In this document: piece by piece, positions 33,981-39,199 of the stretch
How positions within the stretch are numbered: the first letter of the stretch is position 1
Layout: each line of letters opens with the position of its first letter
Virus record (IMG/VR): IMGVR_UViG_3300030117_004991
Location: 1-47,700 of that record
Direction: 5' to 3' (one strand)
DNA: 47,700 nt
Source: a virus
Program-made: the position numbers and the translations under genes
Notes under the pieces: model-generated
What the model was told of the DNA's origin: nothing
Databases searched by the model: none
What the model saw: the letters and a program-made list of their open reading frames with translations, nothing else

Positions 33981-34308
33981 TTTTCCTCCACATTGCTAAT
34001 CTTGTTGGTGTTTCCCTCTTCGCGACTCTATCATCCACTAAACTTTTTACCAAACCTTTAGCACTTTTATAAGCCCAAGTGCTCATTCTCTCTACCATTG
34101 AGGGTTTAACCTCAACATCACTATCGGCAAGATTGAAGTTCTCGTGGTATTGTTCTAGTAAATCATCAATGTAGTCACATAAGAAAGCATATTCTATTGT
34201 ACCTTCATCTGTTGGTAATGTTTTAATAGCTCTTATCTCTTCAAATAAGTGTGGAACTATTACGTTTCTATATCTATCGAGCAATAGCTTTGCTTGTTTC
34301 TCGTTCAT
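33970..34308 (-). CDS. Hypothetical helical early protein
   Basis: 112 residues, helical, ending in TPTRLAMWRKNEI. The PTRLAM segment also occurs in the neighbouring zinc-ribbon protein, encoded by a 15-bp DNA repeat (33995-34009 and 34396-34410). Its ATG overlaps the upstream stop. Unknown. Confidence 0.5.
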   Translation of the reverse strand: MNEKQAKLLLDRYRNVIVPHLFEEIRAIKTLPTDEGTIEYAFLCDYIDDLLEQYHENFNLADSDVEVKPSMVERMSTWAYKSAKGLVKSLVDDRVAKRETPTRLAMWRKNEI

Positions 34309-34556
34309 TATTCGTCTCCTTCATAAGTTACTTGACATTCGTAGATAGTATTTCCTTCTTTGTCCTCTACTTTAGCCGGACGTTGAAAGAACATAGCTAA
34401 TCTTGTTGGTATTACCTTGGTCTCGTTACACTCTGTGCAACATCTACCATTGGTAAGTGGTTGAGCATTGTGACCTTCTCGCCACATCACTTCTCCAGTC
34501 TCAGGATGATACTGGAAATCTATTTCATTATCACATATTGAACATTTTTTAATCAT
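34308..34556 (-). CDS. Zinc-ribbon early protein
   Basis: 82 residues. CSICD (C5, C8) and CCTEC (C39/C40, C43) form a zinc ribbon around residues 5-43. This is followed by IPTRLAMFFQRP and a beta-strand end. AAGGAG lies 6 nt before ATG 34556. It is the first gene after promoter P1 and a long structured leader. Confidence 0.6.
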   Translation of the reverse strand: MIKKCSICDNEIDFQYHPETGEVMWREGHNAQPLTNGRCCTECNETKVIPTRLAMFFQRPAKVEDKEGNTIYECQVTYEGDE

Positions 34557-34866: not shown

Positions 34867-35040
34867 CTAAAAAGAAGGGGGATATTTCTTAAAGCAAGGC
34901 GAGCACTTTAAGCCGAAGAAGATACCATACCTATCGAACCTTCTCCAGGGATGATACCATTCTCCACTGAATGGACTCTTCTCCATTTTTATCTCAGATT
35001 CCTTCTTACAAATCTGACAAGATACGTCAATCTTACTCAT
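34867..35040 (-). CDS. Small zinc-ribbon protein
   Basis: 57 residues. CQIC (C8, C11) and CSPC (C46, C49) form a zinc ribbon with an aromatic loop (WYHPWRRFDRYGIFFGLK). GGAGGTAAATA lies upstream and its ATG overlaps the previous stop (TAATG). Unknown role. Confidence 0.6.
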   Translation of the reverse strand: MSKIDVSCQICKKESEIKMEKSPFSGEWYHPWRRFDRYGIFFGLKCSPCFKKYPPSF

Positions 35041-35117
35041 TATTTACCTCCTTTGCATTTACATTTTGGAAAACATTCTCGAGCATTATAACTGCCACAT
35101 TTTCTGCATCTAAACAT
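35040..35117 (-). CDS. Very small cysteine-rich protein
   Basis: 25 residues with C4, C7, C15, C19 and C21 (MFRCRKCGSYNARECFPKCK...). It looks like a minimal zinc-binding knuckle. It is coupled by TAATG overlaps at both ends, which supports translation despite its size. Confidence 0.45.
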   Translation of the reverse strand: MFRCRKCGSYNARECFPKCKCKGGK

Positions 35118-35350
35118 TATTCGTCCTCCTCGTTGTAAAAGTGCAAGTGCTTGACTACGTCCATAAGTTGGAAGATAGCATTTAGTTCATCTTCTCCTTG
35201 GTATTCCATAGCCTCCTCGAGCCCTCCAGTCTCTTCGATTATCGTCAAACAATCTTGAAGACTCGTCAAAGTGTGTCTGAACACATTCTGAGAGTATCTC
35301 GGATGATTTAGTAGTTCTCTGTCTATAAGTTCTCCATTTGGAAAAGCCAT
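35117..35350 (-). CDS. Hypothetical acidic early protein
   Basis: 77 residues, AAGGAG before ATG 35350. Helical with an acidic C-terminus (YNEEDE). Unknown. Confidence 0.5.
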   Translation of the reverse strand: MAFPNGELIDRELLNHPRYSQNVFRHTLTSLQDCLTIIEETGGLEEAMEYQGEDELNAIFQLMDVVKHLHFYNEEDE

Positions 35351-35371
35351 AATTTATTCTCCTTTTAGTTT

Positions 35372-35395
35372 CCCCTCGACGTTATTGCCGAGGGG
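35372..35395. other. Intergenic hairpin between VWA-like gene and next gene
   Basis: CCCCTCG (35372-35378) pairs with CGAGGGG (35389-35395). No T-run follows on either strand. The arms and loop (CCCTCGACG ... TTGCCGAGGG) repeat those of the terminator at 34817-34840. It is probably an RNA stability or partial-termination element. Confidence 0.5.
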
Positions 35396-35407
35396 ATAGT
35401 GTTAGTG

Positions 35408-36364
35408 TTAGTCCTGGATATGTCCTAGGACGTTGGTTAGTATGTCGTCGAAGTGGTCTGTCTTACCGACGTAAACATCTGACTTGGTCATCTGTTTGAG
35501 CACATCGATATTTCTCTCGACGTTGTGGTCGACATAGAATGGACGACCTAGTCCACCACCAAAGCCGAGACAATCTCTCCAGTATTGGAAGATTAAGTCT
35601 CTGAATATTCCTGACGAGCAATAGTTAACTAGCTTTGTCTCGTTCAGAGGAACACCTGAAGGCTTAGCAATGAACTTAGTTACACCGAGGAAACTGCCCT
35701 CAGGGAAGTGCTCAAAGTGTGAGTTGTGTCGTTGGTCTGAGTTAAACTCTGACGTAGTACCGAACGCAATCTCTGTCGAGTAGCCTTTCTTCTCAAGGGT
35801 CTTGCAAATTGCAATAGCTCGAGTTGCAGTCTCGAAGATTCTCTCGGAAGGAACTGAACAAGACTGAGCATAGTCGATAAAGATTCTGACTGACTTCTGT
35901 CTGTTGTTCCTCTTGTAAGACTCCATAGGGTCTACACCGACCATAGCTTTGTCGATGTTGACGATGCAACCGGCTAAGTCTCGACGACGTTTACGACGAG
36001 TGTCTTGACCAATGTTACCGAGCTTAGCGACGTTGCTAGGGTCGGCGAGCACCTTGGACTTCTCGTTCGCGTAGTACTCCCAACCTTCTTTCGTTGCATA
36101 GCCTCGACGAAGAGACTCGAGCAACGTCTTCCTGGAAGTATAGTCGAGCACTTCCTCGAAGTCTGAGTAGTGTCCAACGCGTTCTAAGAACAATTCGTTC
36201 TCAGGACTTTCTGCTTTCATCTCGTCTAAGAACTCGACGAGACTACCGAACTCCTGAGAGACTACCGACTTAGTTTTCGTCAAGCCTCCATAGTGATTGG
36301 TCTCTACGCGTGAGACTTTGCTACGCGTAGCAGTCAATGGTCTGTTGTTCGCGTTCTTAGCCAT
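35408..36364 (-). CDS. VWA-like (DUF7192/CobT-like) partner of the AAA+ ATPase
   Basis: 318 residues. The basic N-terminal 150 residues lead to a Rossmann-like region: VRIFIDYAQSCSVPSERIF (strand plus the MIDAS position, but without the full DxSxS), then AIAICKTLEKKGYSTEIAF and YWRDCLGFGGGLGRPFYVD. This is the layout of VWA-like DUF7192 proteins found in phages. A degenerate MIDAS suggests altered metal binding. It directly follows the MoxR-like ATPase (TAATG overlap, GGAGGG upstream), as in MoxR-VWA and CobS-CobT pairs. Confidence 0.6.
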   Translation of the reverse strand: MAKNANNRPLTATRSKVSRVETNHYGGLTKTKSVVSQEFGSLVEFLDEMKAESPENELFLERVGHYSDFEEVLDYTSRKTLLESLRRGYATKEGWEYYANEKSKVLADPSNVAKLGNIGQDTRRKRRRDLAGCIVNIDKAMVGVDPMESYKRNNRQKSVRIFIDYAQSCSVPSERIFETATRAIAICKTLEKKGYSTEIAFGTTSEFNSDQRHNSHFEHFPEGSFLGVTKFIAKPSGVPLNETKLVNYCSSGIFRDLIFQYWRDCLGFGGGLGRPFYVDHNVERNIDVLKQMTKSDVYVGKTDHFDDILTNVLGHIQD

Positions 36365-37767
36365 TATGCACCCTCCACTGAGAAGAACTCGTCTTGGTCG
36401 ACGTTGATAGTGACGAGACCGAAACGTCTCTTGCTCTTGTCTCGAGATACTCCGATTGAGTGTAGCTCGTCGTCTGACCAGTCCTGAAGGTAAATCTTGA
36501 GCACCTCCTCAGGTCTCCAACCTTCGCGTACTAGCTTAGCTCCTTGCTCGATAAATCGAGGGGAACAAAGCTTTCTGATTTGTTTCTCAGGTCTGAAGGA
36601 ATGTTCGACGATAGCATCGAAGATTCGACGTAGCTCGATAACAAATGGTTTCACGTCGAGCATCTCCTCACTAGTCAACCAAGGCATCGTCGGATAGTCG
36701 ACGAAGTCGTCCTCTAGTCCGGCGATAGCATTGACGATTCTTCTGTCGACCTCCAACGCGAACTTGGAACAAGTGAATCTGTCGAGGGTAGCATCGTCAA
36801 GCTCCTTACGCACGTAGTTACCGACTGCCATTGCGTCCTGAGCACCTCCCCAAGTGTTTGCCGAAGTTATGACGTAGCACTGAGGATGACGAATAGCTAG
36901 CTCATTCCCTTCGCGAAGAGGAACTGAAATTTCGTCGTTCGCGAGCAGTTGGTTCAGACCGACGAGGACATCAGGGTCTCCATTGTCAAACTCGTCGAGA
37001 AGAATCGTACCACCATTCTCGACGATGTCCAAGAATTTTGTCGACTTGAAATCGCCATTGATGACCATTCTCCCAGTCAAGTGAGCCTCGGAAACTCCGG
37101 CACTTAGCGAGATAGGATAGAACCTATCGTCGTCGTGACCTAGCTTCGCGTTCAGTTGCTTGCCGATTGTCGTCTTACCAGTACCGGCACCACCGACGAG
37201 AAGAACTTGTTTGTTCGTCTTGAGCATCGAGTGAATCTGAGGCATAGCCCAGTGCTCGATAAGACCATTCTCGTCCTTCGTAGGTGAAGGCGTACCAGGG
37301 TTATCTCGGTTGACGATAGCATCAAAAAGCTTGTCGAGCTTGTCGTCGGTTGAGGATTTGTACTCGTCGAACTTCTTCTCGAGACCAGTATCAGGTGCTC
37401 CCTCGGTGCTCGGTTGTGGTTGTTCTTCGCGTTCAGGTTGCTCCTCAGGTTGCTCCCCAGGTTGCTCGTCGGTGAAGTGTTGTCTAAGTTCCTGAGCTAG
37501 TCTCTTCAGAGAATGCTTGTTTCCATCTCTGATTTCTTGACGCATCTCTGATGCATCAGAACGCGTGATAGCTCCAAACTCCTCTGCGACGTTGACTGCA
37601 TCGCGTAGGACTGGTCGCATCTCGTCCTTCACTCTCAGGCTACCAAGAATAGCCTCTCTTAAAGCTCCTCTAATCATATCGTTTTCTATTTTCATCTCTG
37701 ACCCTCCTTCGGTCTTTGGTGTTGGTGTTGTTAGTTTTGTCGTCTTATTCTTACTCGGTGCTCTCAT
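36364..37767 (-). CDS. MoxR/CobS-like AAA+ ATPase
   Basis: 467 residues. The N-terminal helical region (30-97) and an EQP-rich linker (101-120) precede the AAA+ core. This has Walker A GGAGTGKT (192-199), Walker B ILLDEF (255-260), sensor-1 TSAN (301-304) and an Arg-finger type DRF (329-331). MoxR-family ATPases remodel protein complexes together with a VWA partner, here encoded next. Base composition is far more GC- and CpG-rich than the late genes. The strong GGAGGTAGATAATG start overlaps the upstream stop. Confidence 0.8.
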   Translation of the reverse strand: MRAPSKNKTTKLTTPTPKTEGGSEMKIENDMIRGALREAILGSLRVKDEMRPVLRDAVNVAEEFGAITRSDASEMRQEIRDGNKHSLKRLAQELRQHFTDEQPGEQPEEQPEREEQPQPSTEGAPDTGLEKKFDEYKSSTDDKLDKLFDAIVNRDNPGTPSPTKDENGLIEHWAMPQIHSMLKTNKQVLLVGGAGTGKTTIGKQLNAKLGHDDDRFYPISLSAGVSEAHLTGRMVINGDFKSTKFLDIVENGGTILLDEFDNGDPDVLVGLNQLLANDEISVPLREGNELAIRHPQCYVITSANTWGGAQDAMAVGNYVRKELDDATLDRFTCSKFALEVDRRIVNAIAGLEDDFVDYPTMPWLTSEEMLDVKPFVIELRRIFDAIVEHSFRPEKQIRKLCSPRFIEQGAKLVREGWRPEEVLKIYLQDWSDDELHSIGVSRDKSKRRFGLVTINVDQDEFFSVEGA

Positions 37768-38240
37768 TATCTACCTCCTTCGCGTAGTAGTCCATTGATT
37801 GCGTCCTGGAATCTCTTAGCTCTATCGACACAAATCACGTCGAGTGCTCGGTGGTATGGGTGGTCGAACTCCTCGTGTTTTGAGTCGACAACCTTGAGCA
37901 TACTATTCCAAGCCTCGAGGTAACCGACGATGAAAGCATCGCCTGATTCCTCTTCGCGTACGATTCCCTCGGCTATGAGGTGATTCGTAGTAAGCCATTC
38001 TGCTACGCGTAGTTCGTGTTGCTTATATAATTTCACGCACGTAGAAAGCTCGTCAGATTTCTCGAGGACGAGTTGATTGTATCTTACGCGTAGAGAGTGT
38101 TCGAAATCGGGATTTCTTGGCTCTTCTTCGCGTACCATTGTTCTCTCGATGTAAGAACGCGTAGTGCTCAATATGTCGATTGAGTTCGCGAACGCATCGC
38201 TTGTTACTATGTGTGCATCTCTCTGAGATAACTTATTCAT
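37767..38240 (-). CDS. Helical protein heading the AAA+/VWA operon
   Basis: 157 residues, helical and charged, with REEEPR and VREEESGD segments. GAAGGAG lies 10 nt before ATG 38240. It is the first gene of the leftward early operon and coupled to the ATPase gene, so it may be a third subunit or adaptor. Arg is often encoded by CGC or CGT, unlike the AGA of late genes. No family recognised. Confidence 0.5.
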   Translation of the reverse strand: MNKLSQRDAHIVTSDAFANSIDILSTTRSYIERTMVREEEPRNPDFEHSLRVRYNQLVLEKSDELSTCVKLYKQHELRVAEWLTTNHLIAEGIVREEESGDAFIVGYLEAWNSMLKVVDSKHEEFDHPYHRALDVICVDRAKRFQDAINGLLREGGR

Positions 38241-38480
38241 TTTCTAGCTCCTTCGCTATGTCGAGACATTGGTGTTGTCTCCTCGACGTGTCTCGTTTTT
38301 CGTCGATGAGTGCCAAAGTTTACGAATTCCTCACATATAATGCAAGCACTAATTCATTTTCTCGAGGGTACTCAGTACGCGTTACGCGTTCGGTACTCTT
38401 ACGCGTAGGAAGACTAGGTGCTAGAATTTGACGTTTGTCGTCATAAACGTCGTCGACAAAACTTGCGAAAAAAAAATCAG

Positions 38481-38504
38481 AAAGTGCTCAAAAAAGTGCT
38501 CAAA
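38481..38504. repeat. Tandem AAAGTGCTCAAA repeat
   Basis: Two exact 12-bp copies back to back (38481-38492, 38493-38504), with a third GTGCTCA at 38519-38525. This is the only place where the genome-wide GTGCTC motif occurs as a direct repeat in noncoding DNA. Confidence 0.7.
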
Positions 38505-38747
38505 CTGCTTTCGCCTGCGTGCTCAGATTCTAACCCAATCTCTAACTTTACCGACGAGACTCAACGACTTTTTCCTAACCTAGAACCGACAAGGGGGGGC
38601 TTGTGCACACAAAAAAAGAACCTCACACATACTTAAGCTATTTTTTTAGTTTGGGTTGTGTCTCTAAGTCAAGATATATAAAGAGTTGGAGGGTTCGCTA
38701 ACTATACTAACTATACTAGCTAGAGGTTTGACGCTAGTTCTAGCTAG

Positions 38748-38776
38748 AAATTAATGAGTTTTAGTACCGAAGTCAA
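38748..38776 (-). promoter_or_regulatory. Leftward early promoter P5
   Basis: TTGACT (38776-38771), 17-bp spacer, TAATTT (38753-38748). CTAGCTAG sites lie directly downstream (38740-38747, 38716-38723). It would transcribe the AAA+/VWA operon through a long leader. A second possible TTGACT lies near 38669. Confidence 0.45.
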
Positions 38777-38821
38777 GGAATATCGTAAAATAGATTATAA
38801 AAAAATTTTTTAAAAAAAATC

Positions 38822-38849
38822 TTGACAAATGTAAAATATAGTTTATAAA
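38822..38849 (+). promoter_or_regulatory. Rightward promoter P6
   Basis: TTGACA (38822-38827), 16-bp spacer, TATAAA (38844-38849), with a long A/T tract upstream. The predicted start of transcription (about 38856) almost coincides with the GTG at 38858, so the first message may be leaderless. Confidence 0.6.
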
Positions 38850-38857
38850 CTTATTTA

Positions 38858-39199
38858 GTGACCAAAGCACTTAAAATACCAAGTAGTAATCTAAAACTAG
38901 AAATTAATGGTCACACCTATACTATTCGTTTTATTTCAGGCTCTAAGGCAGATTTTGGTACAGATGATACCGAGATATTAGGTGCTATATCTATGCGTCA
39001 GTGCGAAATCATTATAGAGGCAGAAATGAAACACTCTAAAATACTAGAAGTATTGTGTCACGAAGTAATGCACGGTATAACTTTTGGTACAAGTCTTGAA
39101 ATGTCAGAAACACAAGTACAGGTAGTAGCTAATAGTTTATATAGATTAGGCTTTGGTAACTACTTATGGGAAAAATCTGGAGGTAAATATGATTCCTAA
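38858..39199 (+). CDS. HExxH zinc metallopeptidase-like protein
   Basis: 113 residues starting at GTG 38858; an in-frame TAA at 38846 excludes an earlier start. CHEVMHGI gives an H68-E69-x-x-H72 zinc site, as in small ImmA/SprT-like phage peptidases. A beta-rich region precedes it and a helix follows. There is no Shine-Dalgarno because the promoter -10 lies directly upstream. Target unknown; possibly host protein cleavage early in infection. Confidence 0.6.
   Translation: MTKALKIPSSNLKLEINGHTYTIRFISGSKADFGTDDTEILGAISMRQCEIIIEAEMKHSKILEVLCHEVMHGITFGTSLEMSETQVQVVANSLYRLGFGNYLWEKSGGKYDS

Follow-up and report, generated by a model that had tools for sequence, protein, structure and literature searches.

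Phage-borne MoxR-class ATPases and their DUF7192 partners form a conserved gene pair with a predicted NorQ-NorD-like motor and adaptor organisation

Pairs of a MoxR-class AAA+ ATPase and a VWA protein, viral ones included, are already known. In NorQ-NorD, a finger located before strand beta-1 of the VWA domain enters the pore of the ATPase ring and touches the helix-2 insert, and NorD variants mutated in the MIDAS keep NorQ binding while the client stays inactive (PMC9976466, PMC13036017). Viruses also encode a MoxR-type ATPase beside a VWA protein, as in p618-p892 of ATV and in the haloviral pairs of Hardycor1 and HVTV-1, and binding of the ATPase to the VWA protein has been shown for ATV (PMC4124505, PMC7911831). 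CobS-CobT, both viral and cellular, uses an ATPase of the same AAA+ clade, and the cobST genes of phages are likewise a two-gene AAA-VWA cluster. In Midasin/Rea1, an AAA+ ring works with a docking VWA domain.

We describe here a phage locus whose two central products very probably constitute, as predicted from sequence and structure models, a MoxR-class AAA+ hexamer and a dedicated VWA-fold adaptor, NorQ-NorD-like in organisation and with an altered client site. NorQ-NorD provides the best solved fold for each partner, the two genes are adjacent, the ATPase carries a helix-2 insert, and the stretch of the DUF7192 partner ahead of beta-1 lines up with the finger region of VWAs that partner MoxR proteins. 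In contrast to NorD, DUF7192 has no MIDAS, is half the size (318 vs ~640 aa) and lacks the large N-terminal domain; in contrast to NorQ-NorD as a whole, the pair is phage-borne and comes without a nitric oxide reductase client. The vWA partner of the haloviral pairs is larger and MIDAS-bearing (711 aa in Hardycor1), whereas Midasin/Rea1, whose MIDAS-domain VWA fold comes directly behind NorD (Z 5-6.5), is one giant polypeptide of eukaryotes whose MIDAS is intact and binds UBL domains.

The window, i.e. the whole stretch of DNA analysed, is an entire IMG/VR record of 47,700 bases from a marine tailed phage, with a GC content of mostly ~33%. The trio of ORFs at the centre of this study was confirmed on the minus strand: a putatively helical 157-aa protein, the first gene of the block (37767..38240), the ATPase (467 aa, 36364..37767) and the DUF7192 protein (318 aa, 35408..36364). 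The TAATG overlaps by which the initial annotation had joined the three genes are present at both junctions (AAGGAGGTAGATAATG and GGAGGGTGCATAATG); since each downstream gene also has a Shine-Dalgarno-like sequence of its own, translational coupling is likely, not obligatory. The trio heads a leftward block with further genes for DnaB, a Sak-type annealing protein and an exonuclease; the rightward block, which carries the terminase and a P22-like portal, starts at 38858. The position at the head of the leftward block, together with the operon content, makes it plausible that the trio acts early in infection. The ~620-bp divergent intergenic region between the blocks (38240-38858) contains A/T tracts and short ACTATACTA repeats and would be a natural place for promoters of both arms. 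The segment 34867-38240 is a compositional island, with a GC3 of 0.44-0.55 for its five genes, compared with 0.12-0.33 for 15 others elsewhere in the window; its ATPase-DUF7192 part is also GC-raised in the viral contigs L004, L095, L101, L103 and L104, and is therefore old in this lineage.

Homologues of the locus were found on the independent contigs L002 (94% for the ATPase, 89% for the VWA-like protein), L003, L004 and L095. The 157-aa protein has homologues in L002, L003 and L095 only, and unrelated ORFs occupy its place in L004 and L101-L104. Judging from this distribution, the 157-aa gene is not part of the conserved core module; of the three-gene set originally proposed, the pair of ATPase and VWA-like gene is conserved and the third gene is limited to these relatives. 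Two further small minus-strand genes with raised GC3 lie in the block, one for a 77-aa protein (35117..35350, GC3 0.44) and one for a 57-aa protein with a homologue in L002 (34867..35040, GC3 0.48). The latter had been described as a zinc knuckle; its pattern is CxxC...CxxC rather than CCHC, and we regard it as zinc-ribbon-like. Directly downstream of the block, on the same strand, an 82-aa protein carries a CxxC...CCxxC pattern (34308..34556), and a similar ORF is present in L002, L004 and L095. The 157-aa and zinc-ribbon proteins are best explained as lineage-specific extras.

The ATPase matches Pfam AAA_5 (1.8e-14) and phrog_249 (2.4e-27), a family annotated as 'porphyrin biosynthesis'. It possesses a Walker A motif (192-199), a Walker B motif (255-259), sensor 1 (N304), an Arg finger (R330) and sensor 2 (R404), and the alignment columns of K198, D258/E259, N304, R330 and R404 are invariant or nearly so. 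Within the helix-2 insert (~232-243), short strands are predicted at 233-241, G232 is invariant, and T243 is conserved in a 12-sequence set; the N-terminal part contains a helical domain (46-99) and a coiled coil (130-152). In a fold search of the PDB with the AF2 model (pLDDT 81), rows 1-10 were all NorQ or CbbQ (Z 17.1-19.5), with NorQ the best at 19.5, and the best fold outside this group belonged to sigma-54 activators (Z 16.7). The motifs, the insert and the fold thus uphold the earlier description as a MoxR/CobS-like ATPase and, as judged from sequence and model, place the protein in the NorQ/CbbQ/CobS-like clade of MoxR-class AAA+ proteins.

The VWA-like protein matches DUF7192 (PF23822; 39.4 bits, curated cut-off 27) and phrog_1909, both of which are without an assigned function. 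Its AF2 model (pLDDT 85.9, pTM 0.85) finds the NorQ-bound VWA domain of NorD as the best match in the PDB (Z 7.0), followed by the MIDAS domains of Rea1 and human midasin; rows 1-8 are all NorD or Rea1/MDN1 MIDAS domains (Z 5.1-7.0), i.e. VWA domains working with MoxR-clade rings, and because these Z values are moderate the match is taken with caution. The separate structure searches for the two proteins nevertheless converge on the two halves of one solved complex, NorQ and the VWA domain of NorD. Against a viral structure library, the model matched DUF7192 proteins first and phage CobT-type proteins next. From ~117 onwards, profile comparison lines DUF7192 up with both the finger and beta-1 of bacterial VWAs that partner MoxR proteins, with scores of 28.2 and 25.5 for the CoxE-type and CobT_C-type VWAs; the scores exceed shuffles or controls (25.5 for the CobT_C type against a maximum of 16.3 in 60 column shuffles), and since the associated probabilities are only 2.5-12% the alignments were used for register only. 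Relatives were sought with profiles because tblastn with the window protein found no phage relative. Among 84,980 species genomes, a pattern of one DUF7192 subgroup matched five times, always in MAG contigs, and in one phylum it matched 1 of 398 genomes, which was the centre genome itself; on this subgroup's pattern, DUF7192 looks like an essentially phage-borne family. We found no mention of DUF7192 in the literature searched, and none of the sources consulted identifies it as a MIDAS-deficient adaptor that constantly accompanies this ATPase family.

An intact MIDAS (DxSxS-T-D), a feature of MoxR-associated VWA adaptors (NorD, CbbO, CobT, midasin), is absent from the window DUF7192 protein. 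The initial annotation had called its MIDAS degenerate, and this is borne out by the sequence DYAQS at residues 164-168 and by the family as a whole, in which only 2 of 76 members retain a complete D-x-S-x-S. In order of conservation, MIDAS columns 164, 166 and 168 rank only 56th, 102nd and 21st. Other positions are strongly retained: K234, R255, F259 and G273 are near-invariant, G132 is invariant (76/76) and G143 is present in 66/76, while column 145 is proline in 55/76 and aspartate in the window. G132, G143 and column 145 lie in a glycine-led segment ahead of beta-1 (122-157), which is predicted to be a finger from its alignment with the corresponding region of MoxR-partner VWAs. The motor-coupling side of DUF7192 appears, from these column counts, to have been kept and the client side to have been rebuilt. 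As NorD needs its MIDAS for the client and DUF7192 has lost it, the mode of client binding must differ from that of NorD, and we infer that K234 and R255 may form the replacement client site.

The two genes are consistently found together. Viral contigs of IMG/VR were scanned with an ATPase alignment and, judged on the ATPase alone, the 80 loci most similar to the window ATPase were retained; a DUF7192-type gene adjoins the ATPase on the same strand in all 79 loci with flanking DNA, the left-over locus (L049) ending within the ATPase gene. A first profile detected DUF7192 in 75 of these. The ATPase comes first in 66, where the two genes mostly overlap or are separated by a short gap, and DUF7192 comes first in nine; a second profile, constructed from the sequences so found, added the remaining four. 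An ATPase without the VWA-like gene, which would speak against the pair as a unit, was seen in 0 of the 79; because only the 80 closest relatives were kept, distant phage CobS proteins, reported to be CobT-paired (PMC8651126), lie outside this statement. ATPase relatives occur in 349 phage records, and each gene of the pair was matched in 236 Staphylococcus phage records. Nine phages were fetched (Staphylococcus, Listeria (two), Acinetobacter, Mycobacterium, Gordonia, Rhizobium, Lactobacillus and crAss-like), and in each the ATPase is followed by a DUF7192 gene of 254-392 aa that scores above the Pfam cut-off, with one or two small ORFs between the two genes in Lactobacillus 3-521 and Rhizobium P106B. 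The distances among the ATPase proteins and those among the DUF7192 proteins are correlated (r 0.70; maximum of 0.12 in 2,000 permutations), which reflects, at the level of sequence, joint inheritance and is alone no proof of contact.

We propose the following mechanism for the pair. The adaptor would dock on the ATPase ring, with its finger (~122-157, including G132 and a G143-x-P tip) reaching into the pore to meet the helix-2 insert. ATP hydrolysis would then turn or pull the adaptor, and this movement would remodel a client protein gripped at a non-canonical site near Lys234/Arg255, instead of a metal-bound MIDAS. Gene position suggests that the pair would act early. The position of the genes in the window, crAss-like cr125_1, Listeria LP-026 and Lactobacillus 3-521 tentatively points to a DNA replication/recombination complex of the phage or of its host as the client; in cr125_1, for example, the neighbours include a polymerase, a helicase, Sak4, a primase and a resolvase. 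Certain loci are close to terminase or structural genes, which makes the replication link weak, and a census of 125 large neighbouring ORFs gave a mixed picture, with terminase as well as primase/exonuclease signals. A more far-reaching version, to which we give little credence at present, is that a metal-free basic client clamp (Lys234/Arg255) mounted on a MoxR motor serves as a widespread, phage-specific remodeller of replication complexes in diverse tailed phages; if true, the same clamp machine would occur in phage K, A511 and crAss-like phages.

Several other roles have to be weighed against this motor and adaptor model. Viral cobST clusters have been hypothesised to boost cobalamin synthesis by borrowing the CobN of the host (PMC8651126), and a CobS-CobT cobaltochelatase of this kind would agree with the 'porphyrin biosynthesis' annotation in phages, the phrog_249 match and the weak similarity to CobS and CobT. 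The ATPase, however, scores only 22.1 bits against a CobS equivalog cut-off of 558.55, the partner is a DUF7192 protein that has lost the MIDAS, CobT_C (PF11775) has no match in the window partner or in three phage records, and no CobN was found in 13 phage records (phage genomes only). Staphylococcus and Lactobacillus brevis, which are not known to make cobalamin, are among the hosts whose phages carry the same pair. The porphyrin or cobalamin label is thus unsupported by the CobS score, CobT_C and CobN searches, and a cobaltochelatase is highly improbable.

The pair could alternatively take apart, at an early stage of infection, a defence or restriction complex of the host. Its place at the front of the leftward block, which is probably early, the small lineage-specific genes around it and the raised GC3, which suggests a separately acquired cassette, would all suit such a role. 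Counter-defence genes usually turn over, whereas this pair is retained across phages of unrelated hosts, and PADLOC shows nothing beyond generic P-loop matches; likewise, no third component characteristic of the MoxR-vWA ternary conflict systems (VMAP, iSTAND, FtsH) was detected, the third gene differing between lineages. We consider counter-defence unlikely, and of the original suggestion of a remodelling set akin to those in defence systems, the motor and partner unit is supported while PADLOC provides no tie to known defence systems. A chaperone for virion or tail assembly, similar to ATV p618-p892, has a viral MoxR-VWA precedent in which interaction and ATPase stimulation were shown (PMC4124505), and terminase genes lie near some loci. 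In ATV, p618 is part of the virion and has been linked to growth of the tail. The window pair and those of the Staphylococcus, Listeria LP-026, Lactobacillus and crAss-like phages are located away from the structural block and have replication, repair or small early-type genes as neighbours, and we hold an assembly role to be doubtful as well.

The NorQD-like motor and adaptor model has consequences for the annotation of phage genomes. The pair is annotated as 'porphyrin biosynthesis' or 'hypothetical protein' in hundreds of sequenced phages, among them the widely used Staphylococcus phage K and Listeria A511, and the model hands DUF7192 a testable function. The model also speaks against listing these genes as vitamin B12 auxiliary metabolic genes. 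The pair would represent a compact MoxR-VWA system whose client binding is predicted to be independent of the canonical metal site.

Some loci depart from the common arrangement. DUF7192 precedes the ATPase in L050, L068, L072, L078, L079, L082, L087, L089 and L094, and the DUF7192 proteins of eight of these nine loci, when aligned, are mutually similar. Mycobacterium phage Finemlucis encodes a second DUF7192 protein, gp129, as an orphan with no ATPase beside it (L112:3077-3928), a copy that counts against the motor and adaptor model. The DUF7192 gene of crAss-like cr125_1 (L010:4123-5034) contains four in-frame stops under table 11, and reading TAG as glutamine gives read-through. Finally, a 100-kb viral contig encodes a Ro60-like TROVE and vWA protein (L086:7066-8690; vWA_Ro60 7.8e-10, TROVE 1e-6) near an ATPase/DUF7192-like pair.
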